DNA of 34,505 bases, from the NCBI GenBank assembly GCA_009785345.1, contig WQWL01000020.1:1-34505 (forward strand), in the 5' to 3' direction. The number at the start of each line of letters is the position of its first letter. The stretch's first letter is position 1. Below the pieces are notes generated by a model that saw nothing but the letters and a program-made list of their open reading frames with translations, did no database searches and was not told the origin of the DNA. The stretch comes from Oscillospiraceae bacterium. GTDB lineage: Bacteria > Bacillota > Clostridia > Oscillospirales > Oscillospiraceae. Shown here piece by piece: positions 14,586 through 34,505 of this stretch. Position numbers and translations under genes: made by a program.

Positions 14586-15347
14586 TTAACCTTTACGCTG
14601 TCTGACAGTTTCGTATAGAAGTACTGCTGCAGACACAGATGCGTTAAGCGATGAAAGATTTCCATTCATAGGAATATTTACCTTATGGTCACAGTTTTCG
14701 CTAATAAGACGGCTGATTCCTGTTCCTTCAGAACCGATTACAAATGCAGTAGCAGATTTAAAGTCAGACTCCCACAGAGACTTTTCACCATCCATGGTTG
14801 CTGCAGAAACCCAAACCCCGGCTTTTTTAAGTTCCTTAATTGCTGCCGTAAGATTTGACACACGCGCAATTGCCATATGGAATATCGCACCGCTTGATGC
14901 CTTCGCTACAGTAGCGTTAACCCCTGCACTCCTGCGCTTCGGGATAATAACACCATGTGCACCTGTTGCCTCACAAGTTCTTATTATTGCACCGAGATTA
15001 TGCGGATCTGATATTTCATCACAAATAATAACAAGTGGCTCTTCACCTCGCTGCTTTGCGATAGCAAGTATATCGTCAATAGATACATATTGTGCATATG
15101 CAGCCATTGCAATGACACCTTGATGTGAGTTAGTGACACTCATAAAATCCAACTTACGCTTATCAGCATCAACAACAACTATACCTACAGCACGAGCCTT
15201 TGAGGCTATATGCTTAAGTGTTGAATCAACTTCACCCTTTAAGATGAAAATCTTATCAATATTTGCCCCAGAACGCAACGCCTCAATAACAGCATTACGC
15301 CCCTCAATTATACCCTCTCGCCTATCGTTTTCCAACTCAACGGACAT
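14586..15347 (-). CDS. rlmB: 23S rRNA 2'-O-methyltransferase, RlmB/TrmH (SpoU) family
   Basis: SAM-dependent rRNA ribose methyltransferase of the SPOUT class. About 253 residues from the ATG chosen here. The N-terminal substrate-binding domain begins EGRNAVIEALRSG. The SPOUT knot domain carries EISDPHNLGAIIRTCEATGAHGVI (motif 1), the FVIGSEGTGISRL stretch (motif 2) and PMNGNLSSLNASVSAAVLLYE (motif 3). An upstream in-frame GTG at 15380 would add 11 residues. I prefer the ATG at 15347 because AAAGGA lies upstream of it in a sequence context shared with several other genes in the window. The target is probably a conserved 23S guanosine such as G2251, by family. It lies downstream of metK, which makes its cofactor. 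Confidence 0.92.
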   Translation of the reverse strand: MSVELENDRREGIIEGRNAVIEALRSGANIDKIFILKGEVDSTLKHIASKARAVGIVVVDADKRKLDFMSVTNSHQGVIAMAAYAQYVSIDDILAIAKQRGEEPLVIICDEISDPHNLGAIIRTCEATGAHGVIIPKRRSAGVNATVAKASSGAIFHMAIARVSNLTAAIKELKKAGVWVSAATMDGEKSLWESDFKSATAFVIGSEGTGISRLISENCDHKVNIPMNGNLSSLNASVSAAVLLYETVRQRKG

Positions 15348-15402
15348 ATTTATAACGATTCCTTTCACTAAGCAAATCACAAAACAACTATAAAATCAGA
15401 AA

Positions 15403-18124: not shown

Positions 18125-18209
18125 AAAATAATTCACATATTCGCGCAGACGTGATACACTCTCCATTACTAAACAAAACAGGAGTTCGGCGAAAAGGATA
18201 GTCATATAT

Positions 18210-19091
18210 ATGCAGACAATTGAAAATAAGAGTAGAAATGGACCTCTATTTATAGCTTTAGCTTCATTATGCTGGAGCTTTGGCGGATTATTTATCAGAT
18301 TTATTCCCTGGAGTGCAATGAGTATCGTTGGTATTCGCGCATTTCTTGCCGCCATTGTATTTATCATCTACCGTCGTAATGTAAAGTTAGAGTTTACTCG
18401 TGGTAATGTGTTTACTGCATTATGCTTGTCCGCAACAACAATTTTATATGTTTATGCAAATCAGCTCACAACTGCGGCGGCTGCTATTTTATTACAGTTT
18501 ACCGCTCCAATTTTCATAATACTGATATATCTTGTTTTCTATGGAAAGAAACCGTCATTGAGTGCAATTGTCGCTGTATTTATGACATTAGTTGGCATGA
18601 TGCTATTCTTTGTTGAAAATTTGGAGTATGGAGCATTGCTTGGCAACATATTTGCTCTTCTCTCCGGATTGTCAATGGCTGGTGTCTATGTGTGTAATAA
18701 GAGACCGGATACTAATCCAGAAAATGCTCTGTTTTTGGGTTTTCTTATTAATTCAATTATCGGCTTGCCTTTTGCGATTACCGGAGTAACCGCCGATATT
18801 GGACCTTGGGTAGCTGTTTTCTTCCTCGGTGTTGTTCAAGTCGGGTTTGCATATATCTTCTTTTCAAAAGGAATAAAGAAAACATCAGCATTACTCGCCT
18901 GCCTAACATCCACAGTTGAGCCGATTCTCAACCCAATTTGGGTCATGCTTGCCGGGCTTTGGGGATTTTTACCCGTAACAGAGATTCCGGGAATATTTGC
19001 ACTAATCGGCGGTATCGTAATTATATTGACAGTTGTCGGCTATAATATGTATATTGAGCGAACCTCTAAAAATGCCTCAGGTGCTGACTAG
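18210..19091 (+). CDS. DMT-superfamily (EamA) transporter
   Basis: Integral membrane protein of 293 residues with about ten hydrophobic helices in two EamA repeats. The first begins ALASLCWSFGGLFIRF, and the second includes the ASTVEPILNP-like segment CLTSTVEPILNPIWVM that is typical near the C terminus of the family. Family members export or import small metabolites and amino acids; the substrate cannot be read from sequence. Start ATG is preceded by AAAAGGA within a context shared with accD and others. It diverges from citrate synthase. Its stop codon overlaps the stop of the convergent rhodanese gene by 4 nt (ctag). Confidence 0.88.
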   Translation: MQTIENKSRNGPLFIALASLCWSFGGLFIRFIPWSAMSIVGIRAFLAAIVFIIYRRNVKLEFTRGNVFTALCLSATTILYVYANQLTTAAAAILLQFTAPIFIILIYLVFYGKKPSLSAIVAVFMTLVGMMLFFVENLEYGALLGNIFALLSGLSMAGVYVCNKRPDTNPENALFLGFLINSIIGLPFAITGVTADIGPWVAVFFLGVVQVGFAYIFFSKGIKKTSALLACLTSTVEPILNPIWVMLAGLWGFLPVTEIPGIFALIGGIVIILTVVGYNMYIERTSKNASGAD

Positions 19092-21237: not shown

Positions 21238-21276
21238 TTCACGTTCAGGGCAAACTCACATAATGTTTTTATAATA

Positions 21277-21296
21277 TTTTTATTGCGCAATAAAAA
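21277..21296. promoter_or_regulatory. Perfect 20-bp palindrome in the accB leader
   Basis: tttttattgcgcaataaaaa is fully self-complementary. It lies about 35-55 bp downstream of the expected transcription start of accBCDA, a position suited to a repressor operator. It does not look like the FapR or FabT consensus as I know them. Confidence 0.55.
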
Positions 21297-21408
21297 ATAG
21301 TTTTTATACCATTGGCAAGACCCCACTTCAAACGTCAAAGGTATTAGGTGGTGGGTACAATAAAGCATTTTTTATACCGCAAGATTTTCGAAAGGAATTG
21401 TCATTAAT

Positions 21409-21900
21409 ATGGATTTAGAAAAATTAAAAAAGATAATTGAAATGTTAGAAGATTCATCGCTTCATAAACTGCAACTCAAAGATGGAGACGAGGAGCTACT
21501 TTTAGAAAAGGAATCGACCTCCCATGAAATAACATCTATAGTATCTCCGATTCAACACAGTGTACCAGTTTCTCCGCATATTATCCATGATAATTTTGCT
21601 TCGACATCGCCCTCCACAACAAATGAAGAAACAAAAATTGAAGAAACTCCAAAAGCTTCTGATTACACAGTAGTTGTTTCGCCATTAGTAGGTATTTACT
21701 ATGAGGCCAGTGCTCCGGAACAACCAGCATTTGTTGAAGTTGGAAGTCAGGTTAAAGTTGGGGATACCCTTTGTATTATCGAGGCAATGAAAGTACTAAA
21801 TGAAATAAAGGCATCGGTTGCGGGTGAAGTAAAAGCCATTCATGTAAAAAATGGTGATATCCTATCCTATAATCAAACTCTTATTGAAATAGGAGAATGA
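21409..21900 (+). CDS. accB: Acetyl-CoA carboxylase biotin carboxyl carrier protein
   Basis: Carrier subunit of acetyl-CoA carboxylase, 163 residues. The N-terminal segment (LEKLKKIIEMLEDSSLHKL) matches AccB proteins, a Ser/Thr/Pro-rich linker covers about 45-90, and the biotinyl domain follows. The biotinylation motif is EAMKV with Lys128 as the attachment site. First gene of accB-accC-accD-accA; its stop is 2 nt before the accC start chosen here. The start ATG follows GAAAGGA by 12 nt in a sequence context shared with accD, accA, rlmB and the NRPS-operon permease. BirA, encoded divergently, would biotinylate it. Confidence 0.96.
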   Translation: MDLEKLKKIIEMLEDSSLHKLQLKDGDEELLLEKESTSHEITSIVSPIQHSVPVSPHIIHDNFASTSPSTTNEETKIEETPKASDYTVVVSPLVGIYYEASAPEQPAFVEVGSQVKVGDTLCIIEAMKVLNEIKASVAGEVKAIHVKNGDILSYNQTLIEIGE

Positions 21901-21902
21901 GT

Positions 21903-23261
21903 ATGTTAAAAAAAATATTAATTGCAAATCGTGGAGAAATTGCAGTTAGAATTATTCGAGCATGCAAGGAGCTAGGCATAGAAAGTGTTGCAATTTACTC
22001 AACCGCTGAACACGATGCCCTACACGTTCAATTAGCAGATGAAGCTATTTGTGTTGGTGAACCAAGAGCAGTTGATAGTTATTTGAATATGCAAAATATA
22101 CTAAGTGCCGCCTGTAATACAGGTTGTGATGCTGTTCACCCGGGATATGGTTTTCTTTCAGAAAACAGTAAATTTGCGCGCTTGGTAAACCAATGTCGAC
22201 TTACTTTTATCGGTCCCGATCCGGAAATAATTGATTTAATGGGCAATAAAGCCTCAGCACGTGCCACGATGATTAAACATAATGTGCCTGTCGTACCGGG
22301 AAGCGATTCTGTAATCACCTCCATAACCGACGGTCTCAAGTGGGCAAAGGAAGTAGGATATCCTGTTCTTATAAAAGCATCAAGTGGCGGCGGCGGAAAA
22401 GGCATGCGCATTGCATATAATCCTAAAGAACTTGAAACGGCTTACAAGCTTGCAACCGCCGAAGCAAAAGCCAACTTTGGTGATGATAGCGTTTATCTGG
22501 AAAAATTCATTGAGAATCCAAAGCATATTGAAATTCAAGTAATGGGTGACCATCATCAAAATTATGTTCATTTTTATGAGCGCGATTGCTCTGTGCAACG
22601 AAATTATCAAAAAGTTATTGAAGAGGCACCCTGTGCAGTATTGCGCGAAGATGTGCGACAAAATATGATTGATGCTGCGATTAATGCTGTTGCCGCGCTC
22701 AACTATACAAATGCCGGTACAATCGAATTTATTTTAGACCAAGACCAAAATTATTACTTTATTGAGATGAATACCAGAATTCAAGTTGAACATCCTATAA
22801 GTGAAATGATTACAGGTGTGGACTTGATTAAAGAGCAAATACGTGTTGCCTCAGGATTCCCGCTATCCGTTAGGCAAGAAGATATACATAGAAATGGCTA
22901 CGCAATGGAATGCCGCATTAATGCCGAAAATGCGTTTAACGGCTTTCAACCTTCTTCAGGAAAAGTTGAAACACTCATTTTACCCGGCGGTTTCGGCGTA
23001 AGGGTTGACACATATCTTTATCAGGGAGCGAATGTCCCACCCTTTTACGATTCAATGGTAGGAAAATTAATTGTTCACGGAAACAACCGTGAAGAGTGCA
23101 TTTATAAAATGCGACGCGCATTGGAAGAGTTTATCGTTGAGGGTATTACGACTAACATCGATTTTCACTATTATCTTTTGCATAATTCTAATTTTGTAAA
23201 TGGAGAATTTGATGTTGGATTTATTGGTCGAGTGTTAATGGAGTTAGAGAAGTATGAATAA
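21903..23261 (+). CDS. accC: Biotin carboxylase subunit of acetyl-CoA carboxylase
   Basis: ATP-grasp enzyme that carboxylates the biotin on AccB, about 452 residues, normal length. Motifs: KKILIANRGEIAVRIIRACKE at the start, HPGYGFLSEN, the ATP-grasp glycine loop SSGGGGKGMR, and EMNTRIQVEHPISE near the catalytic region. Two ATGs lie close together. The one at 21897 overlaps the accB stop but leaves one base to AGGAG, so I chose 21903, which is 7 nt from that site. The last codons and stop are part of a 13-bp perfect hairpin (23247-23274) that opens the structured intercistronic element ahead of accD. Confidence 0.96.
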   Translation: MLKKILIANRGEIAVRIIRACKELGIESVAIYSTAEHDALHVQLADEAICVGEPRAVDSYLNMQNILSAACNTGCDAVHPGYGFLSENSKFARLVNQCRLTFIGPDPEIIDLMGNKASARATMIKHNVPVVPGSDSVITSITDGLKWAKEVGYPVLIKASSGGGGKGMRIAYNPKELETAYKLATAEAKANFGDDSVYLEKFIENPKHIEIQVMGDHHQNYVHFYERDCSVQRNYQKVIEEAPCAVLREDVRQNMIDAAINAVAALNYTNAGTIEFILDQDQNYYFIEMNTRIQVEHPISEMITGVDLIKEQIRVASGFPLSVRQEDIHRNGYAMECRINAENAFNGFQPSSGKVETLILPGGFGVRVDTYLYQGANVPPFYDSMVGKLIVHGNNREECIYKMRRALEEFIVEGITTNIDFHYYLLHNSNFVNGEFDVGFIGRVLMELEKYE

Positions 23262-23384
23262 ATTCATACTTCTCAATGTACCAATTGCTCCCTCTGCGGG
23301 GAACCGCAAATTGATGCACAAAATGACCATCCTTATTTCATGGTTATTATGTGATTATATGCAGCGAAAAGGATGGTCATAACT
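23247..23384 (+). promoter_or_regulatory. Structured intercistronic leader of accD (copy 1 of a two-copy element)
   Basis: Three successive stem-loops. H1: 23247-23259 with 23262-23274, 13 perfect pairs including the accC stop. H2: 23278-23319, a bulged stem gtaccaattg/caaattgatgcac capped by a CCC/GGG hairpin. H3: 23323-23334 (atgaccatcctt) with 23369-23380 (aaggatggtcat), 12 perfect pairs across a 34-nt loop. The H3 3' arm contains the accD Shine-Dalgarno. The same layout, with compensating changes, precedes the ABC permease gene at 28186-28322. Translation-gating RNA is my favoured reading; a palindromic mobile repeat is the alternative. Confidence 0.75.
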
Positions 23385-24278
23385 ATGAATAAAGTATTTA
23401 ATGAACAAAGAAAAAAAATGAAACGCTTTTCCGGCACAAAAGAGTCAAAGCGGTCACATGTAGTTGCAAATACTCCCGATGGACTTTATGAAAAATGTGG
23501 AAGCTGTCACGAAAATGTGCTCATGGAAGATTTGCAGCAGAACTTATATGTGTGCTTCCATTGTGGCGATCATGGACGATTATCTGCTGCAGAACGTTTA
23601 AAACAAATTGCTGATGATGGGACGTTTGAAGAAACATTTGCTTCTGATATAAGCAATAATCCGCTGTCAATACCGGGCTATTCTGAAAAACTAGCACAAA
23701 ATAGACGAAAAAACAATATGAACGAAGCTGTCGTTACCGGCACCTGCCAAATTAACGGACATGAATATGCTATTGCTGTAATGGATAGTTATTTTCTGAT
23801 GGGAAGCATGGGAGTCGTTGTTGGTGAAAAAATCACAGCCTTAGTTGAAATGGCAACAGAAAAAAAATTGCCACTATTGATTTTCTCGACTTCCGGCGGT
23901 GCCAGAATGCAGGAAGGAATTTTGTCATTGATGCAGATGGCAAAAACGAGCGCAGCAATTGGGCGTCATCACAATGCAGGATTATTATATATTTCTGTGC
24001 TAACACATCCGACAACCGGAGGCGTTAGCGCCAGTTTTGCAAATCTCGGTGATATTATCATCGCTGAACCCAATGCTCTAATCGGATTTGCAGGTCCTCG
24101 TGTAATTAAACAAACCATCAACCAAAATCTACCCGAAGACTTTCAACGTTCAGAATTTTTACTTGAAAAAGGTTTTGTAGATCAAGTTGTAAAACGCGAA
24201 CATTTAAAAGATGTATTGACAAAGCTATCAAAACTCCATCGAATTAGTGAAAGGAATGGTCATACGGATGAGCCTTAA
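23385..24278 (+). CDS. accD: Acetyl-CoA carboxylase carboxyltransferase beta subunit
   Basis: Transfers the carboxyl group from carboxybiotin to acetyl-CoA together with AccA. 297 residues from the start used here. An N-terminal zinc ribbon, CGSC followed about 18 residues later by CFHC, precedes the crotonase-like carboxyltransferase fold with STSGGARMQEGILSLMQMAK and GGVSASFANLGD. A further in-frame ATG at 23373 lies inside the Shine-Dalgarno region, so the ATG at 23385 is preferred. The Shine-Dalgarno is predicted to be paired in hairpin H3 of the leader, so output relative to accC may be regulated. It overlaps accA by 11 nt. Confidence 0.96.
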   Translation: MNKVFNEQRKKMKRFSGTKESKRSHVVANTPDGLYEKCGSCHENVLMEDLQQNLYVCFHCGDHGRLSAAERLKQIADDGTFEETFASDISNNPLSIPGYSEKLAQNRRKNNMNEAVVTGTCQINGHEYAIAVMDSYFLMGSMGVVVGEKITALVEMATEKKLPLLIFSTSGGARMQEGILSLMQMAKTSAAIGRHHNAGLLYISVLTHPTTGGVSASFANLGDIIIAEPNALIGFAGPRVIKQTINQNLPEDFQRSEFLLEKGFVDQVVKREHLKDVLTKLSKLHRISERNGHTDEP

Positions 24279-26639: not shown

Positions 26640-27335
26640 CTAGTCCTTGACAAAGAGATAATGACACATTTCTTCCACCGTAATTTCGTCTATCTTATCT
26701 GGAAAGTCATCAACCATCGAACAAATCGATAATTTATAACCCTCGATAGGAAGTTGCCTAAAGTGAGGACTGGTTTTCCGGTTAATATCGGTCACTGAAA
26801 TGCCTGAACATGATATGTCAAAGCAAAATGAATCTAATGGAATCGACATTCCAAGCCCAAGCCATTTCATATAACTCTCTTTAAGTGTCCATAATGAATA
26901 GAAGTAATCAAGGCGATTATTAATATTTTGAGCAAATAAATCTTCGTACTCACGCTTACAAAAATAGTGTTTTGCAAGATCTAAATCAATGTCTTTTACT
27001 TGCTCTATGTCGACTCCTACCTCATGTTCGCTAAAGGCACAGACTACAAAATCGCCTGCGTGGGAAACGTTGAAATGTACAGGAGAATCCTTGATATACG
27101 GTTTCCCCTCATCTCCCTTTAGTATCTCGATTTCATCATTTGCAAATGAATACTGCTGACACAATACATGACGAAACATTAATTCTCCATATAAAGTGCG
27201 CAAAGCATCTTTCTTAAACATAAACCGTTGACATTTTTCTCTGTTCTCGTCTGAGATGACTTGAAGCAAGCCATTGAAAATATCATCGCTTAATGAAGAG
27301 TCTATTTTAGCTACGTAAATATGGTTTTTACACAT
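26640..27335 (-). CDS. Sfp-type 4'-phosphopantetheinyl transferase
   Basis: Transfers phosphopantetheine from CoA to serine of carrier domains. 231 residues, the size of Sfp (about 224). Motifs: GKPY followed by FNVSHAGD, VGVDIEQVKDID with the metal-binding Asp and Glu, and WTLKESYMKWLG with the W-x-x-KE-xxx-K signature. Its start overlaps the permease stop by 8 nt, so the genes are coupled. It is in the same minus-strand series as the NRPS, whose two visible carrier domains are its obvious targets. The RBS is weak, consistent with coupling. Confidence 0.94.
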   Translation of the reverse strand: MCKNHIYVAKIDSSLSDDIFNGLLQVISDENREKCQRFMFKKDALRTLYGELMFRHVLCQQYSFANDEIEILKGDEGKPYIKDSPVHFNVSHAGDFVVCAFSEHEVGVDIEQVKDIDLDLAKHYFCKREYEDLFAQNINNRLDYFYSLWTLKESYMKWLGLGMSIPLDSFCFDISCSGISVTDINRKTSPHFRQLPIEGYKLSICSMVDDFPDKIDEITVEEMCHYLFVKD

Positions 27336-28185
27336 ATCGTCTTGACATTCTCCAAACAGATAAAAGGAAAAATAGAATCGCTGTCCCTGCTAAGACAAGC
27401 ACACTATCCAACATCGTAAACTGACGTCCGTTAATCACATAAATAACTCCCATTGACTCCTGGAACTCCTGCAAATACTCAGCCGGAATGTGTGAAAACG
27501 CATCCTCAGCAATTCCATCGATAAACAATTGTCTAAATAATACTGTCGTATGGGATTGAGGAAAAAAGCGAATGAGGGTTTGAATAGGTCCCGGTAAATC
27601 TCCTATCGGCACATAAATTCCCATCAAAAATCCAATTAAGGTGCCTAAAATGGTAGATATTGCCCCAAACGCTTGATTTGTCTTAATATACATAGTGAAA
27701 AAGAAAATCATAAACGAATTAAGCAGTACACTAAGGACTAAAATACCCATAGCTTTAGTCATATTCAATAAAGACATCACATGATTGCCCATAATTGCAT
27801 TATATGAAGTCAAAACTACAAGAATAATTATACTCATGACGGTTCCCACAAAAAACGCACCGAGAGCGTATCCAGCTACAATTCTATATCTTTGAACCGG
27901 TGTTGAGTAAAAATCCTTATATAAATGATGCACTTTATCATTGACCATAACAACAAAGGCGCCTTTGGTTGTTGTTACAGTCGTTACACCCAGAATTCCT
28001 GCAAAAATCCAGTTGTTAACAACCTCATTTACTTCTTCAAAGCTACCACCATAATAACTAGTAATTGTATTACCTAAAAACAAAACAAACAGAGCTATAA
28101 TCAAAAGTACGGATAATAAGGAGAAAAACACCCCTAATTTATCTCTAAAATATAGTAAAACATTTCTCATCGCTAGTGTTGTCAT
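27328..28185 (-). CDS. ABC-2 type transporter permease
   Basis: 285-residue membrane protein with about six helices: 20-40, a pair in the NWIFAGILGVTTVTTTKGAF region, YRIVAGYALGAFFVGTVMSI, AMGILVLSVLLNSFMIFF, FGAISTILGTLIGFLMGIYVPIGDLPGPI and a C-terminal helix before MSRRYV. The AGxLxxxxPxG-like loop near the fifth helix (GIYVPIGDLP) is a signature of ABC-2 drug and lipopeptide exporters. It pairs with the ATPase gene just upstream; in this operon it probably exports the NRPS product. The start at 28185 is chosen over the in-frame codon at 28206 because the latter overlaps the Shine-Dalgarno. Its leader is copy 2 of the structured element. Confidence 0.9.
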   Translation of the reverse strand: MTTLAMRNVLLYFRDKLGVFFSLLSVLLIIALFVLFLGNTITSYYGGSFEEVNEVVNNWIFAGILGVTTVTTTKGAFVVMVNDKVHHLYKDFYSTPVQRYRIVAGYALGAFFVGTVMSIIILVVLTSYNAIMGNHVMSLLNMTKAMGILVLSVLLNSFMIFFFTMYIKTNQAFGAISTILGTLIGFLMGIYVPIGDLPGPIQTLIRFFPQSHTTVLFRQLFIDGIAEDAFSHIPAEYLQEFQESMGVIYVINGRQFTMLDSVLVLAGTAILFFLLSVWRMSRRYV

Positions 28186-28322
28186 ATTTATAACCATTCC
28201 TTTCACGAAGCTTTACACAAAACAACCATGAATTTGAATGGTTATTTCGTGCATCAAATTGCGGTTCCCTATAGGGGAAACAATTGGCACATTCTTTCGT
28301 AAGTTTGAATTTATTCAAACTT
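28186..28322 (-). promoter_or_regulatory. Structured intercistronic leader of the ABC permease gene (copy 2)
   Basis: Minus-strand counterpart of 23247-23384. H1: 28301-28310 with 28313-28322, a 10-bp perfect stem over the ATPase stop codon. H2: 28249-28290, gtgccaattg/caatttgatgcac plus a ttccc/gggaa cap. H3: 28236-28245 (ataaccattc, read on minus) with 28190-28199 (gaatggttat), 10 perfect pairs that enclose the Shine-Dalgarno. H3 and H1 arms differ from copy 1 by paired changes that keep complementarity. Unpaired segments such as ggaaccgcaa and ttcatggtt are nearly unchanged. Confidence 0.75.
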
Positions 28323-29244
28323 TATTATCATCCCTGCCTGTTATATCCAGAAAAACATCATCCATGGTCCCATTGATGATTTCAACATTGGTAATCTCAT
28401 CTTTGATTATATTAGCAAATGGAATGGCATCCATAGTTGAATCAAATTTTACTTCGATGACTTCACCGCTTTGAACAAAGTCAATTTGGTATTCTGTAAG
28501 TGCTTCTACAAAGGAATCCATACATTTTGGTACAAATTTTAGTAAGTCGTGGCAATACTTCTGCTTCAATTCCAAAGGAGTTCCTTTTGCCAATATCTCA
28601 CCATGCCCAATAATTGTGATAAAATCTGACTGTTCAGCTTCTTCCATATAGTGAGTTGTCAAGAAAACGGTTACTCCATTTTCTTTTTGCAGAGTTCTAA
28701 TTGTTGACCAAATATCTTTTCGAGTTTGAGAGTCAAGCCCTGTCGTGGGTTCATCTAAAAACAAAATTTTAGGTGTATTAATGAGTGCTCTTGCTATATC
28801 AGCCCTCCTCCTTTGTCCACCGGATAATTTTTCATAAGGTCTATGAAGAAATTCTCCTAATTGAGCAATTTCGGTGACAGCTTCAATGCGTTCTTTCAAC
28901 TTCTGTTTTGAAAATTTATAAAATCTCCCTCTGATTTTCAAATTTTCATGAACAGTTAGCATAGAGTCTAGTAAACTTCGCTGAAAAACGATTCCGATTG
29001 ATTTTCGTATTTCAAAATCATTTTTTCCCAACTCATGACCGTCAATAATGACTTTCCCGGCATCGGGTTCTAGCAGGGTGCAGAGTATATCAATTGTTGT
29101 TGATTTCCCCGCACCATTTTTTCCCAAAAACGAAAACATTGTTCCCTTTTCTACATAGAAATCAATTCCCCTGACGGCCTTGACTTCTTTTCCTTGCACA
29201 GTGTAACTCTTGGCAAGTGATTTTACTTCAATAATCTTCTCCAC
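28315..29244 (-). CDS. ABC transporter ATP-binding protein (drug/antibiotic exporter type)
   Basis: About 309 residues. Walker A GKNGAGKST, Q-loop region GIVFQRSLLD, signature LSGGQRRRADIARAL, Walker B ILFLDEPTTGLD and the switch region TTHYMEEAEQ are all present. The C-terminal ~90 residues form the extension seen in DrrA/NatA-like exporters. The longest frame begins with TTG at 29256 and an ATG follows at 29250. I prefer GTG at 29244 because TTGGAG then lies 6 nt upstream and the protein begins MEKIIEV, as relatives do; this choice is uncertain. It lies between the NRPS and permease genes. The stop codon is inside hairpin H1 of the permease leader. Confidence 0.93.
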   Translation of the reverse strand: MEKIIEVKSLAKSYTVQGKEVKAVRGIDFYVEKGTMFSFLGKNGAGKSTTIDILCTLLEPDAGKVIIDGHELGKNDFEIRKSIGIVFQRSLLDSMLTVHENLKIRGRFYKFSKQKLKERIEAVTEIAQLGEFLHRPYEKLSGGQRRRADIARALINTPKILFLDEPTTGLDSQTRKDIWSTIRTLQKENGVTVFLTTHYMEEAEQSDFITIIGHGEILAKGTPLELKQKYCHDLLKFVPKCMDSFVEALTEYQIDFVQSGEVIEVKFDSTMDAIPFANIIKDEITNVEIINGTMDDVFLDITGRDDNKV

Positions 29245-29412: not shown

Positions 29413-32400
29413 CTATTGGTGATTAGTATTAAGTCTCTCGATGGTTTGATCTTGGTCTTCACATAAGTTGTCTATGATCTTGACAAATTCAGCCATCATT
29501 TTTTCTATTGTTTCCTTCTTAAACAAGTCACTACAGAACTTGAGTGTCACAGTATGTTCGCCACCATTTTCTACAATTTTGCAAACCAGGTCAAACTTAG
29601 CTTCTTCGTCTGTAAATGTAATTTCTTCAGGTTGGAAATATAATCCATCTATCACCACTTCATCCAACATGTAACTATCTTCTTCGTAAAATATATATTG
29701 AACATCATACAAAGGTGTTCTGGATTTGTCTTGATACGCCTGTGGCTCATATAATGATGCAAGAGATTCAAATGGATAATCTTGATTTTCATAAGCCATC
29801 AAACAGTTTTCTTTTACTTCAGCTAAAAACTTACTAACTGATTTTTCTTTTTCCGGCATGCCACTCATAAGCAATCGATTTATAAATACTCCCTGCATTT
29901 CTTCAGTGTCCTTATGTGTTCGACCTGAGATTGGCGTTCCTACCACAACACTTTGATCGCTATAGTTACTTAGTAAAATCATTGTCACTGACAACCATGT
30001 CATGAATTCAGTTAAGCCAGCTTTTTGACCGATTTCAACAACTTTGTTACTGAGCATTTTATCGAGTTTTTTTACAACCACGTCTCCATTGAATTTTTTC
30101 TTTTCCGGTCTTGGATAGTCTTCCGGTAGTTTCAATTTCGGAACACCATTTTTAAAATGATTCATCCAATAGTTTTTCTGATCGTCAAGTTGTCTATTTA
30201 ATGTCCACTCACTGTAGTCCTTATATTGTAACTTTGGTGGTGTAAGCTCACCACCTGTGTACAAACTGACAAACTCACTTAAAAACAACTCTCCAGATAT
30301 TCCGTCAGTAATAATATGATGACTATCCAAAAAGAGTATATAATTCTCTTCTCCGGTTTTGATAACTTTTGTTCTCATTAAAGGAGCTTTTTCTAAATCA
30401 AAAGGACGTACAAAGTCACGAGCAAACTTGTCAAATTCCTCTTCGTCATAACACTCCTCGTAAGTCATATCCATTTCTACCCGATCATGAATTTTTGCAA
30501 CAGTTTCATTCCCAATCAAATGGAAGCTTGTTCGAAAGATTTCATGACGATTTAGTAATGTTTCAAAAACCATTTCTGCTTTTTCTACATCAAAGTTTCC
30601 ACGCACTTTCAATGCGCTAGGAGTATTGTTTGTCATATCTATTGTATTGTAATCCCATAAATGAGCCGTTAGGAAATATAATTTTTGTGACGGAGATATT
30701 GGATAGTATTCTTTTACATCGGCTACCGGTATTGGTTCATAGCTGCCCTCTAGATCCTCTAGAGCCAAACAGATGCCCTCTACTGTCACCCCAAGGAAGA
30801 TATCTTTGATGCCTAATCTCACACCCGTTGCCTGCTCGATTTGGTTCACGAGCAAGGTTGCTCGCAATGAGTTGCCACCAAGTTCAAAGAAGCTTTCCTT
30901 GATGCCGATTGGGTTGATTTTGAACATTTCCTCAAAAACGGCTACAACCGCTTTTTCAATCGGTGTTATTGGCGCAACATATACTTTTGTTGTTGTAAGC
31001 TCTATTTTAGGCAGAGCTCGTTTATTTAGCTTGCCGTTACTTGTCACTGGAAAATGATCAATTCTCATAAAGTGCACAGGAATCATATAGTCGGGCAAAT
31101 TGCTCCGCAGTTCAAATCTTATCTGATCTACATCAAGTTCATTTTCACTTTGAACATAAGCACATAACGCCTGTTCTCCATGGTCATCTGTTTGCACGAT
31201 AACCACGGCATCGGAAATGCTCGGAAGATTGCGTAAGTTGCTCGCAATCTCGCCCAGTTCAATTCTAAGACCTCGTATTTTAACCTGTTCGTCGATTCTT
31301 CCGAGATATTCAATGTTGCCATCGGGCAGCCATCTTGTCGCGTCACCAGTTCTGTACAGCTTACCCGTTCCAAAGGGGTTGTCGATAAATTTTTCATCAG
31401 TCAATTCGGCATTGTTCAAATATCCCTTTGTCACCCCGGCTCCTGCAATACAAAGCTCGCCAACCATGCCAATGCCACAGAGCGCAACTCCGTTCAAGAT
31501 ATACGCCTGGTAATTGCCGATGGGCTTGCCAATTGAGCTGATTCTTTCGTTTTCTCTCAGCAGATAGTGAGTAGCATCGACACTTGTTTCTGTCGGTCCA
31601 TATGTATTTACCAGCTCTGCATCCTTGTTATATGCTCCGACTAATTGATAAAACATGTTAACATCATTGGTGCTGATTGCCTCACCGCCTGCAAAAACAT
31701 AGCGCAAACTTTTTAGCATATTGCCGTATTTCAGAGGATCCATTGCCACTTGTGCCAGAAATACTTTTAACATCGACGGTGCAATCTGCATTTCTGTCAA
31801 TTGGTGTGCCTCAATGACTTCACACATTTTAACAGAATCTTTTTCATCGCCAGGTGTCAATAAGTGACCACTTGACCCAACCAAACTCCACCTGAAAATC
31901 TCAACAATTGACGCGTCAAAGGTGTATGTTGTTTTTTGCAATACTCGCTCGTTCATTGGATAATATTTTTGCAAATAACTGATGAGGTTAACCGTCCCCT
32001 TGTGCAAACACATTACACCCTTAGGTTGACCGGTTGTTCCTGATGTGTACAGTAAGCACAAATCGTCTTCGGTAGTATTTACTATTGGCAAATTTTCAAC
32101 ATTTCCATCGTATACAGACGAATCTGCCAAATCGATTATCGGTAAATTCATGTCAACATCCACTTGGTATGTCAACATCGCTTTTGCTTGCGAGTCTTTT
32201 AGCATATAATCCAGTCTTTCGGGTGGGCACTCCGTATCAACTGGCATATACGCGCCACCAGATTTGATGATTGCATAAATTCCAATGACAAGCTCCATGC
32301 TACGCTCTGTCATAAGCGCAACATAGTCGCCTGGCTTAACTCCCATGTCCCTGAGTGTCTTTGCTATGGCATTAGATTTTGCATTTAGCTCGCCATAGGT

Positions 32401-34505
32401 CATGTGCTTATCTTCGAAGGTCATGGCTATTTTGTCAGGAGCTTTCGCCGCTTGTTCCTCAAAAAGCTCTATGACAGTCTTATCATTTGGATAATCCATC
32501 TCTGTTGCATTAAAATTCTTCAGAATTCTACTCTTCTCATCTTCTAACGCAAGTTCGATATCACCTATCAGGCTTGATTGTTTCTCACTTAGTTGACCCA
32601 GCAAATAGGCAAGTCTGTCAATAATCAAATTTACGGTTTCTTCTTTGAATAAATCCGTGCAATATTCGAACGCCACTTCATATCCACCGTCCGATTCTGT
32701 CATCAGCAGAGATAAATCGAACTTTGCTATGGGATCATCATCTATGTTTTCAAAGGTCTCAAATTGGATGCCGTTGACTGTTGTACGATTTTGTTCCATG
32801 TTCTCACCCAAAGTAAACATCACATCGAACAACGGATTTCTCGACATATCACGTGGTAAATTTAAGGCTTCTACCAACTCTTCAAATGGATAGTCTTGGT
32901 TTTCATATGCTTGTAAGCTGAATTCTTTGATTTCCTCTATGAACCCAGCTAGAGTCTTATTTCTCTCGGGCTTGCCTCTCATTACCAAGGTGTTAACAAA
33001 CATGCCAACCATGTTTTCTGTGTCTCTGTGGGTTCTGCCTGATATCGGTGTCCCCACTACCACATCTTCCTGATTGCTGTACTTGCTCAAAACAATCATA
33101 AATGATGACAACAACACCATGTATTCCGTCGAACCTGTTCGTTGAGCCAGGTTCAACACGTGGTCACGCAGACTTTTATCCAGATTTCTTATAATGGCAG
33201 CACCTTCAAAGCTTTGAAGCGTAGGTCGTGGATAATCTGTCGGCAACTCAAGAACAGGAATCTCATCTTCAAACTGCTCCAGCCAATACGATTTTTGTGT
33301 ATTTAAATCACGTCCGAGCATCCACTGTGTGTAGTCTTTGTATTGCACACGTACTTTCGGTAACTCTTCTCCTGCGTATAACGACAAGAAATCAGACATC
33401 AAGATTTCTGTTGATATTCCATCTGAGATTATATGATGCATATCCAGAAGTAATACATGCTCATCTTCTTCCACTGTAACAAGTTCTGCTCTAATTAGCG
33501 GTGCCTTGCTTAAATCGAATGGGCGAACAAATGCTTCCATTGCTTGACCGATATTTGTCGCTTCGGCTAATTCCTTATGAACAACATTTAACTCTAAATC
33601 ATCATGGACATATTGAACCGGCTCTGATCCCATAAGGCCAAAGCTTGTTCTAAGAGCCTCATGCCTTTCGATGAGTTTGTTAAATGCGATCTCTGCCCTG
33701 TCAACATCTAACTTGCCTTTGATTGTCAATGCAGTAGGCATGTTGTATGCGGTGCCTGTATCTTCAATTTGATTGAGAACAAACAATCTCTTTTGAGCAG
33801 ATGACATAGGATAGTACTCTTTTTCGTCAGCTTGAGGAATCGGCTCATAGCTACCCTCAAGACCTTCTAAAGCTAAACAAATACCCTCTACCGTTACTCC
33901 CTGGAAGATGTCTTTGATTCCCAATCTCACGCCCAAGGCTTGTTCGATCTGATTAACTAGCAATGTCGCCTTCAGCGAGTTGCCACCTAAGTCAAAGAAA
34001 CTATCCTTAATACCTACCTGCTCAAGACCAAACATTTCTTCAAAAATACCGACTACTGCTTCTTGGCTCTCTGTGGTAGGAGCCACATATTCTCTTACAT
34101 TGGTTATTCCTATCTCAGGTAAGGCTCTCATATTCAACTTACCACTACTTGTCACAGGAAATTCTGTCACTCTCAGAAAATGACTTGGTACCATGTAATC
34201 AGGTAGATGATTACGCAGCTGAATCTTGATTTGCTCTACATCAAGATTACCTACATTCGTTGCAACACCACCTGACTCAGTACCATCTAATTCAGTACCG
34301 TTTGCAGCAGCTATGTCTAGTTTAGCATCGTCAGTATCAGTACTGTCAACACCAGTACTACCTATACTGCCTATTTCAGCACCGCCCAAGTCAAGTCCTT
34401 CTTCAGTTTGCACATATGCACATAATACTTTATCGCCGACTTCACTTGTTTGAACTATCGCTACTGCATCCGTGATACCTTCGAGTCTGCGTAAACTACT
34501 CTCTA
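29413..34505 (-). CDS. Nonribosomal peptide synthetase, 5' end outside the window
   Basis: The frame stays open to the window edge (about 1,696 codons visible), so it is partial. Domain order: end of an adenylation (A) domain, carrier (PCP) domain, condensation (C) domain, A domain, PCP, C domain, stop. PCP serines lie in GGNSLKA (codon 33976-33978) and GGNSLRA (30868-30870). Both C domains keep the active motif: HHIISDG (about 33419-33447) and HHIITDG (about 30300-30327). The complete A domain (about 31000-32520) has LLYTSGTTGQPKG, NTYGPTETSVD, YRTGDATRWLPDG and SNGKLNKRALP. Its specificity code reads roughly D-A-V-Q-F-G-T-V-D-K by hand alignment to GrsA, closest in feel to Gln/Glu codes. 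No epimerase, thioesterase or reductase follows. The chain end TNHQ shortly follows the last C domain. Confidence 0.95.
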   Translation of the reverse strand, partial: ESSLRRLEGITDAVAIVQTSEVGDKVLCAYVQTEEGLDLGGAEIGSIGSTGVDSTDTDDAKLDIAAANGTELDGTESGGVATNVGNLDVEQIKIQLRNHLPDYMVPSHFLRVTEFPVTSSGKLNMRALPEIGITNVREYVAPTTESQEAVVGIFEEMFGLEQVGIKDSFFDLGGNSLKATLLVNQIEQALGVRLGIKDIFQGVTVEGICLALEGLEGSYEPIPQADEKEYYPMSSAQKRLFVLNQIEDTGTAYNMPTALTIKGKLDVDRAEIAFNKLIERHEALRTSFGLMGSEPVQYVHDDLELNVVHKELAEATNIGQAMEAFVRPFDLSKAPLIRAELVTVEEDEHVLLLDMHHIISDGISTEILMSDFLSLYAGEELPKVRVQYKDYTQWMLGRDLNTQKSYWLEQFEDEIPVLELPTDYPRPTLQSFEGAAIIRNLDKSLRDHVLNLAQRTGSTEYMVLLSSFMIVLSKYSNQEDVVVGTPISGRTHRDTENMVGMFVNTLVMRGKPERNKTLAGFIEEIKEFSLQAYENQDYPFEELVEALNLPRDMSRNPLFDVMFTLGENMEQNRTTVNGIQFETFENIDDDPIAKFDLSLLMTESDGGYEVAFEYCTDLFKEETVNLIIDRLAYLLGQLSEKQSSLIGDIELALEDEKSRILKNFNATEMDYPNDKTVIELFEEQAAKAPDKIAMTFEDKHMTYGELNAKSNAIAKTLRDMGVKPGDYVALMTERSMELVIGIYAIIKSGGAYMPVDTECPPERLDYMLKDSQAKAMLTYQVDVDMNLPIIDLADSSVYDGNVENLPIVNTTEDDLCLLYTSGTTGQPKGVMCLHKGTVNLISYLQKYYPMNERVLQKTTYTFDASIVEIFRWSLVGSSGHLLTPGDEKDSVKMCEVIEAHQLTEMQIAPSMLKVFLAQVAMDPLKYGNMLKSLRYVFAGGEAISTNDVNMFYQLVGAYNKDAELVNTYGPTETSVDATHYLLRENERISSIGKPIGNYQAYILNGVALCGIGMVGELCIAGAGVTKGYLNNAELTDEKFIDNPFGTGKLYRTGDATRWLPDGNIEYLGRIDEQVKIRGLRIELGEIASNLRNLPSISDAVVIVQTDDHGEQALCAYVQSENELDVDQIRFELRSNLPDYMIPVHFMRIDHFPVTSNGKLNKRALPKIELTTTKVYVAPITPIEKAVVAVFEEMFKINPIGIKESFFELGGNSLRATLLVNQIEQATGVRLGIKDIFLGVTVEGICLALEDLEGSYEPIPVADVKEYYPISPSQKLYFLTAHLWDYNTIDMTNNTPSALKVRGNFDVEKAEMVFETLLNRHEIFRTSFHLIGNETVAKIHDRVEMDMTYEECYDEEEFDKFARDFVRPFDLEKAPLMRTKVIKTGEENYILFLDSHHIITDGISGELFLSEFVSLYTGGELTPPKLQYKDYSEWTLNRQLDDQKNYWMNHFKNGVPKLKLPEDYPRPEKKKFNGDVVVKKLDKMLSNKVVEIGQKAGLTEFMTWLSVTMILLSNYSDQSVVVGTPISGRTHKDTEEMQGVFINRLLMSGMPEKEKSVSKFLAEVKENCLMAYENQDYPFESLASLYEPQAYQDKSRTPLYDVQYIFYEEDSYMLDEVVIDGLYFQPEEITFTDEEAKFDLVCKIVENGGEHTVTLKFCSDLFKKETIEKMMAEFVKIIDNLCEDQDQTIERLNTNHQ

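Follow-up and report, generated by a model that had tools for sequence, protein, structure and literature searches.

A structured repeat with two full copies in a 34,505-nucleotide stretch of an Oscillospiraceae genome (hereafter the window) is probably a non-autonomous, mobile-like element that replaces ribosome-binding sites (RBSs) and brings with it a Shine-Dalgarno sequence (SD) with two structural states. As read from the aligned sequences, the element has a constant orientation and separates a gene's own SD from its start codon, leaving the element's SD as the one in front of the gene. That SD belongs to the 3' arm of a helix, H3, and covariation shows that the H3 5' arm can pair with a middle segment instead, an arrangement predicted to free the SD.

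With the family as a guide, the limits of the two full copies were set at 23245-23387 on the forward strand and 28183-28327 on the reverse strand, a few bases past those of the preliminary description, which had rightly reported a copy upstream of accD and one on the minus strand, a nearly full-length alignment of the two, and their H1 and H3 arms. The copy between accC and accD terminates in the accD start codon and scores 134.0 bits with covariance model R2 (E 2.1e-27) and 143.4 bits with model R1, while the second copy scores 136.4 bits with R2 (E 6.1e-28), both copies being members of the training sets of both models. Compared with dinucleotide shuffles, the folds have z values of -6.5 (accD copy) and -5.5 (minus-strand copy), and for neither copy did any of 200 shuffles fold as well. 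Immediately 5' of the accD copy, within the end of accC, lies the putative original accD SD region (TGGAGTTAGAG, 23239-23249, forward strand), at the position where an excess of SDs is seen family-wide. The predicted fold of this copy begins with H1 (GAGAAGTATGAAT-aa-ATTCATACTTCTC, 23247-23274), which contains the accC stop codon TAA (23259-23261) and, downstream of the upstream SD, an ATG (23254-23256); the element therefore includes the end of one gene, and its final bases are the start codon of the next. H2 (GTaCCAATTGC...GCAAATTGATGCAC, 23277-23319) encloses a small hairpin whose end is GGGGAACC, and H3 (23324-23379) pairs TGACCATCC (23324-23332) with GGATGGTCA (23371-23379); both helices are indicated by fold and covariation. 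The tail, identified by a motif match, comprises the SD carried by the element and the start codon (AAAAGGATGGTCATAACTATG, 23367-23387), and H3 is predicted to sequester the accD SD within it, as the preliminary description had proposed from the fold. The alternative hairpin of the accD copy (23316-23353) pairs GCACAAAATGACCAT (23316-23330) with ATGGTTATTATGTG (23340-23353) and is predicted to be incompatible with H3 and with the base of H2, leaving the SD free. This competing second helix had no place in the preliminary description, and the stretches that had been taken there as conserved and unpaired are mostly paired: GCAAATT and GCAC form the 3' side of H2, and TTCATGGTT lies within the 3' arm of the alternative hairpin, opposite GCACAAAATGACCAT. 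The exception is GGAACC/GAAACC, which follows the small hairpin and is the clearest conserved unpaired stretch.

The window holds a series of forms of the element, from the two full copies to bare tails. A decayed copy precedes accB (21273-21411, forward strand; R2 27.5 bits, E 2.6e-4; tail at 21391-21411), and the tail of a probable 5'-truncated copy (15345-15365, reverse strand) precedes a gene named rlmB by NCBIfam, with a middle-arm remnant, GTTGTTTTGTGA, upstream and an R2 match of only E 0.22. A tail-only copy identified by a motif match precedes accA and overlaps the end of accD (24250-24270, forward strand), and a probable tail-only copy (18192-18212, forward strand; three mismatches to the tail motif, SD-like ACAGGAG just 5') precedes an ORF that we take to be EamA-like. 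The element tail is hence the RBS of four further window genes (rlmB, the EamA-like ORF, accB and accA) and, accD counted, of three of the four acc genes; a birA-like ORF in the window has a similar GGAGTAGTCATA. The ORF downstream of the minus-strand copy matched 0 NCBIfam families and presumably encodes an ABC-transporter permease. The flanks of this ABC pair are, by our assumption, a long NRPS-like ORF with carrier-protein-like repeats (29413-34413, reverse strand) and a phosphopantetheinyl-transferase-like ORF (26640-27335, reverse strand).

The element had been described as a two-copy structure; it belongs instead to a large dispersed family. A core pattern allowing up to 3 mismatches occurs at 27 places in the host genome, compared with 0 for the reversed control, which excludes chance. 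By inspection, 26 of these 27 matches end at an ATG in the same orientation, the exception being L021. The preliminary description had held that random positions and orientations would mark a mobile repeat; on placement its expectation was borne out, since the copies are not random, yet the family remains mobile-repeat-like in other respects. Covariance model R1, built from 25 of the 27 core matches (L021 and L024 left out), found at least 80 places in the host at E<=0.01 among the 150 of 2237 candidates that were scored. Across 60 genomes, host included, R1 matched in 20, comprising 16 of 19 genomes of the genus, 4 of 18 from other genera of the family and 0 of 23 from other families. Copy number differs widely within the genus, with at least 52 copies in G000 and at least 54 in G010 (52 candidates scored per genome), 19 in G005, at most nine in the remaining genomes and 0 in G003, G011 and G017. 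The host genome is a fragmented assembly (237 contigs, 85.86% complete) and the named relatives are metagenome-assembled genomes (MAGs); the matching relatives in the pattern scan were Oscillospiraceae MAGs with the isolate codes Co191 and Emb289. Both codes also appear in a study of higher-termite gut MAGs (PMC7024585), and the host genome may likewise come from a termite gut. The first exact pattern gave 0 matches in the genome-contig collection, and the phage collection held no match to the element. A phage origin was rejected, as two patterns searched on viral contigs gave 0 and 2 matches, both of the latter lacking the fold.

Several variants were observed within the family. A divergent subtype (L228, L231, L115) has an H2 of about GCGTGAGC...CGCGAAACC...GCTC.TACGCAC, and three copies of G012 (L157, L158, L160) carry one or two additional GGAAATCCGCGACGCGCGG-like units within H2. 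Elements occur in tandem at L243 (C41:3917-4190) and at C10:7565-7848, and both members of the L243 pair share a rare tail variant, GGAATAGACA, with a matching 5' arm. On G000 contigs C87 and C92 (L229, L232), element copies are interrupted or adjoined by copies of another repeat, a probable insertion sequence with GGAACTGTCCAG...CAGACAGTTCC-like ends. Five host copies (L021, L225, L227, L228, L240) have no tail before an ATG. An H1-like match at C80 lies within an open frame and looks like chance.

Covariation was assessed in 104 copies, obtained by an alignment A4 search over 100 of the 118 loci L058-L175 (left out: L071, L085, L098-L106, L120, L121, L132, L134, L135, L159, L164), in which 104 of 112 matches passed E 1e-14; these copies are the stronger matches, with weak and truncated copies under-represented. 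Among them, 94.7% of cells pair and 29 of 32 pairs show two-sided changes. Because this alignment had been fitted to the structure, it is biased in favour of it; within it, two-sided cells number 289, compared with 53.7 in shuffled and at most 54 in slid controls, and 0 of 500 shuffles were as high. In alignment A2 (25 copies), which was built without structure, two-sided cells number 19 versus 3.8, the pairs having been chosen from the consensus fold of A2 itself. The arms differ strongly in sequence between copies, with H1 versions such as AGTTTGAAxx... and TAGCGTGAxx..., and with H3 5' arms of the versions TGACCATTCC, AGTCCATTCC, TGACAATTCC and TGATCATTCC that are mostly matched by their 3' arms. 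Covariation in both alignments far exceeds what recent duplication would leave, and with shuffled and slid controls exceeded it supports, on comparative evidence, the structured cis-acting RNA proposed previously.

The alternative helix joins the H3 5' arm to the middle segment (GCAC.AAATGACCAT with ATGGTTGTTTTGTG[C]). Its positions pair in 88.9% of cells, compared with at most 57% in slid controls, with 35 two-sided cells versus 12.0 shuffled, in an alignment that was not fitted for this helix. Margins are smaller for two other measures, two-sided pairs being reached by 25 of 500 shuffles and pair types by 3 of 500; the columns were chosen on L089 after the pairing had been seen, and part of the signal could be carried over from the shared H3 5' arm. 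H3 and the alternative helix are mutually exclusive, and as the H3 5' arm pairs either the SD arm or the middle segment, the leader appears to be built as a two-state structure. In predictions for naked RNA over 103 copies (one copy without a recognisable tail SD was left out of this calculation), the mean probability that the SD is unpaired is 0.28 and the median cost of opening it is 4.2 kcal/mol above the optimum. For the 96 of 103 copies that could be scored for the hairpin, again as predicted naked RNA, the SD-free optimum contains the alternative hairpin (at least 7 such pairs) in 78, and the unconstrained optimum already contains it in 36, indicating that SD closure is not uniform.

The end of the model, which includes three start-codon positions, coincides with ATG in 96 of the 104 copies and with a start codon in 99, in line with the preliminary placement of copies before start codons. 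Behind 99 copies the reading frame is 60 codons or longer or extends past the end of the locus, and the other five are followed by short frames only. On the 5' side, SD-like tetramers are most frequent about 8-19 nt ahead of the H1 NTG, and upstream duplexes with the anti-SD of -6 kcal/mol or lower were predicted for 67% of copies versus 18% in a control stretch (Wilcoxon p 5e-15). An SD upstream together with the SD of the tail places the element between the gene's own SD and its ATG, with a new SD at its end.

An NTG behind an SD could also be the start of a leader peptide, in which case the element would be an attenuator whose ribosomes start at this codon and whose progress decides between H3 and the alternative hairpin. 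The codon is present at SD spacing in 99 of 104 copies (TTG 73, GTG 16, ATG 9, CTG 1), and stops inside H1 occur in its frame in 10 of 94 classified copies, compared with 94 of 94 and 54 of 94 in the other frames, a difference that arises because of the NTGA sequence itself. Neither the peptide nor its end is conserved, however, and the H1-H2 spacer shifts the frame, with three frames found within one genome (L089, L108, L156). As the frames vary, a leader peptide is not supported, and we regard such an attenuator as very improbable. An in-frame translated insertion of the kind represented by Rickettsia palindromic elements likewise does not describe the copies, in which both frames and stops vary.

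Comparison of orthologous loci is consistent with insertion between SD and start codon. At eno, a plain SD-ATG arrangement is found in all seven other genomes examined, whereas G004 has SD-element-ATG. At pgsA, G004 carries the element. In G018, G016 and G005 the SD is plain and the upstream gene's stop overlaps the start codon; in G011 a plain SD follows a longer intergenic stretch, and G010 has the tail alone, after an SD-like GAGGAG. This comparison indicates that in G004 the upstream gene runs into the element and takes its stop codon from it. By eye, no target site duplication was evident at the empty sites of these two loci. AccD orthologues occur in 12 of the 19 genus genomes, host included, but those other than the host protein are 48-51% identical and too distant for an empty-site comparison at accD; upstream DNA was read at 3 of the 12 loci.

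The genes behind the copies are diverse. In a hand-picked set of 20, NCBIfam families included Era, pyroglutamyl peptidase, thiamine diphosphokinase, QueA, MoaA, PilT, AspS, HisS, RplX, RuvX, RpoC, PlsX, enolase, SecY, MnmA and TruA. Among the proteins following the 104 copies, only one ParA-like pair (G004/G016, 92% identical) is clearly orthologous across genomes; seven other matches reach 24-35% identity (best 34.5% over 284 aa), several of them between transporter-like proteins. A set of orthologous downstream genes, as a riboswitch-like regulon would have, was thus not found across the 104 copies, nor was a shared pathway apparent in the hand-picked set. A riboswitch specific to acc genes was ruled out, as the same element stands before unrelated genes. 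Copies group by genome on a tree in which inner branches are often weak, with 21 label changes compared with a shuffled mean of 51.8 and a minimum of 44 in 200 shuffles. The proposal that the element is dedicated to tuning carboxyltransferase relative to biotin carboxylase, or serves a ligand regulon, is not supported by these observations on downstream genes and grouping, nor by a copy number that runs from 0 to dozens within one genus.

A broader version of this idea, a very large cis-regulatory regulon in which a protein-, sRNA- or ligand-binding translational switch precedes many genes without being mobile itself, would account for the fixed place and orientation at start codons, the strongly conserved SD-sequestering and alternative helices and the conserved unpaired GRAACC segment, and it could draw on the five hand-picked downstream genes that are linked to tRNA (QueA, AspS, HisS, MnmA, TruA). 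We nevertheless consider it unlikely, given the near-absence of orthologous downstream genes, the 0 copies in three genomes and dozens in two others of the same genus, the many truncated and tail-only copies and the lack of an Rfam match. At curated scores Rfam gave 0 matches in the window, with none relevant at E<=10 for the accD copy, and on six loci of the family and its cousins the sole match was a neighbouring T-box, which agrees with the preliminary statement that no known riboswitch class is recognised.

Copies truncated at the 5' side but intact at the 3' end are common, and tail-less copies are fewer. With up to 3 mismatches allowed, the tail motif has 152 host matches, compared with 2 for the reversed control. 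Tail plus ATG at up to 2 mismatches, full copies included, gave counts of 132 (G000), 138 (G010) and 64 (G005), compared with 1, 4 and 1 in the copy-free genomes. Across 19 genomes tail count follows R1 copy number (rank correlation rho 0.958), a relation that is partly built in, since full copies carry tails, and in which the copy counts of G000 and G010 are lower bounds.

The distribution of tails bears on how copies might spread. An element-like tail is present upstream in about ten of the 104 copies, and in five the upstream flank fits the copy's own tail, partly a rare variant, better than any other tail, which suits recombination or tandem duplication better than simple insertion. A general target duplication of the SD region was rejected: flank and own tail resemble each other more than in shuffles (a value reached by 1 of 2000 permutations), but only a minority of copies contribute to this, five of the high scorers having their own tail as best fit. 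Terminal inverted repeats of the MITE kind were not found: in the consensus, the 5' end has no partner outside H1 and the 3' end none other than the inner H3 arm. Neither candidate driver follows the copies: three Y1_Tnp matches were found in G000 and none in G010 or G005 (assemblies 90-95% complete, which leaves room for a gap), and RVT_1 was found in 7 of 19 genus genomes, none of them G000, G010 or G005. A transposase-free spread, in which recombination or gene conversion uses the common tail and RBS as its anchor, would fit the failure of Y1 transposase and reverse transcriptase to track copy number, the variable 5' ends, the upstream tails and the homology offered by the 152 host tail matches. 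Full copies, however, have a sharp 5' boundary beside SDs that are mostly without tail homology, and relatives have plain SDs at eno and pgsA, and we judge this route quite unlikely.

Under the preferred reading, that of a mobile-like repeat replacing RBSs, copies would multiply inside individual genomes by inserting into translation initiation regions, with the spacer between SD and start codon as the probable target; the fixed position could also reflect selection rather than targeting. After insertion, the downstream gene would rely on a partly closed SD, and later loss of the 5' part (H1, H2 and the 5' arm) would leave the tail alone as a new, open RBS and relieve the closure. Our guess is that the two-state fold chiefly makes insertions less harmful or helps the element to spread. 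If this reading is correct, a selfish repeat can multiply in a bacterial genome by using the short SD-to-start spacer, including that of rpoC, secY and rplX, and leave a standard RBS behind; the evolution of RBSs by mobile elements becomes testable, and dozens of closely related leaders with a two-state SD are naturally available in a single genome.

The family extends beyond the genus. At E<=1e-5, R2 matched in at least 14 of 394 genomes of the order, host included, with seven candidates scored per genome. Some matches are of the SD type (e.g. L269-L272), and matches of this type extend to another family of the order. A further eleven have H1, the H2 core (e.g. GTGCCATTTCCTCGCCCC...GGGGCAACCGGAAATGATGCAC) and a long H3 in common and are apparently not bound to start codons. 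As judged by eye, six of these 11 cousins (L273, L274, L275, L277, L280, L284) begin directly 3' of a compact terminator-like hairpin, at its T-run, and two further cousins (L278, L283) stand behind a longer predicted hairpin, indicating that Oscillospiraceae cousins outside the genus are often positioned behind intrinsic terminators. Cousins also occur on two named human-gut plasmid records, of Vescimonas fastidiosa and Pusillibacter faecalis, the latter following a strong predicted hairpin. At L274, the cousin (1501-1648) stands right behind a T-box leader (1261-1486), between the T-box and the downstream gene. A tentative reading, which we regard as doubtful, is that a single Oscillospirales H1-H2-H3 family settles immediately after a signal for gene expression and ends in a renewed version of the same signal, with an SD in and an SD out before start codons in the genus, and a terminator in and a terminator-like hairpin with T-run out in other genera. 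If so, the target would be a feature of the transcript, recognised as RNA or through base pairing, and a mobile element would be rewriting the translation signals of its host.

Searches of open-licence PMC text turned up no account of a folded repeat that separates an SD from its start codon, and the element, a folded, mobile-like repeat of ~140 bases tied to translation starts, appears to be new. Rickettsia palindromic elements are selfish palindromic repeats of similar size that lie in frame inside genes; unlike them, the element stands before the start codon and does not have a conserved reading frame. Group IIC introns insert next to intrinsic terminators and in this resemble the cousins of the family, which adjoin terminators; they differ from the element, which is ~140 nt long, has no recognised ribozyme core or Rfam match and occurs in G000, G010 and G005, where RVT_1 was not found. 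REPINs and REPs are mobilised by RAYT (TnpA-REP) Y1 transposases and, to our knowledge, have no link to start codons. Unlike the REPIN/RAYT system, the element reaches high copy number in two genomes without a Y1_Tnp match (G010, G005), and it folds into a three-helix RNA whose SD has two states. The closest parallel in position is offered by the TAACTGA direct repeats of Beggiatoaceae, which are dispersed, mostly just before start codons and in forward orientation, show no pattern in gene function and have been suggested to act in translation (PMC4679880). These are tandem 7-base units with little SD character, and a folded element with a new SD is not among the features described in the part of that source dealing with them (PMC4679880). 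MITE-like repeats such as RUP, Correia/NEMIS, ERIC, BOX and SPRITE are, in the portions of the sources drawn on here, small non-autonomous mobile repeats, some of which are transcribed and act on mRNA (PMC2229807, PMC3049150). Pneumococcal repeats are described in part of one of these as over-represented between convergent genes (PMC3049150), unlike the element, which lies between SD and ATG in a single orientation and brings an SD. In kind, the element is nearest to such MITE-like repeats together with REPINs/REPs, which, as partial accounts describe them, are short hairpin repeats without a gene of their own that are amplified within single genomes (PMC3116915, PMC8266576, PMC8049555), the element being likewise short, geneless and genome-amplified.
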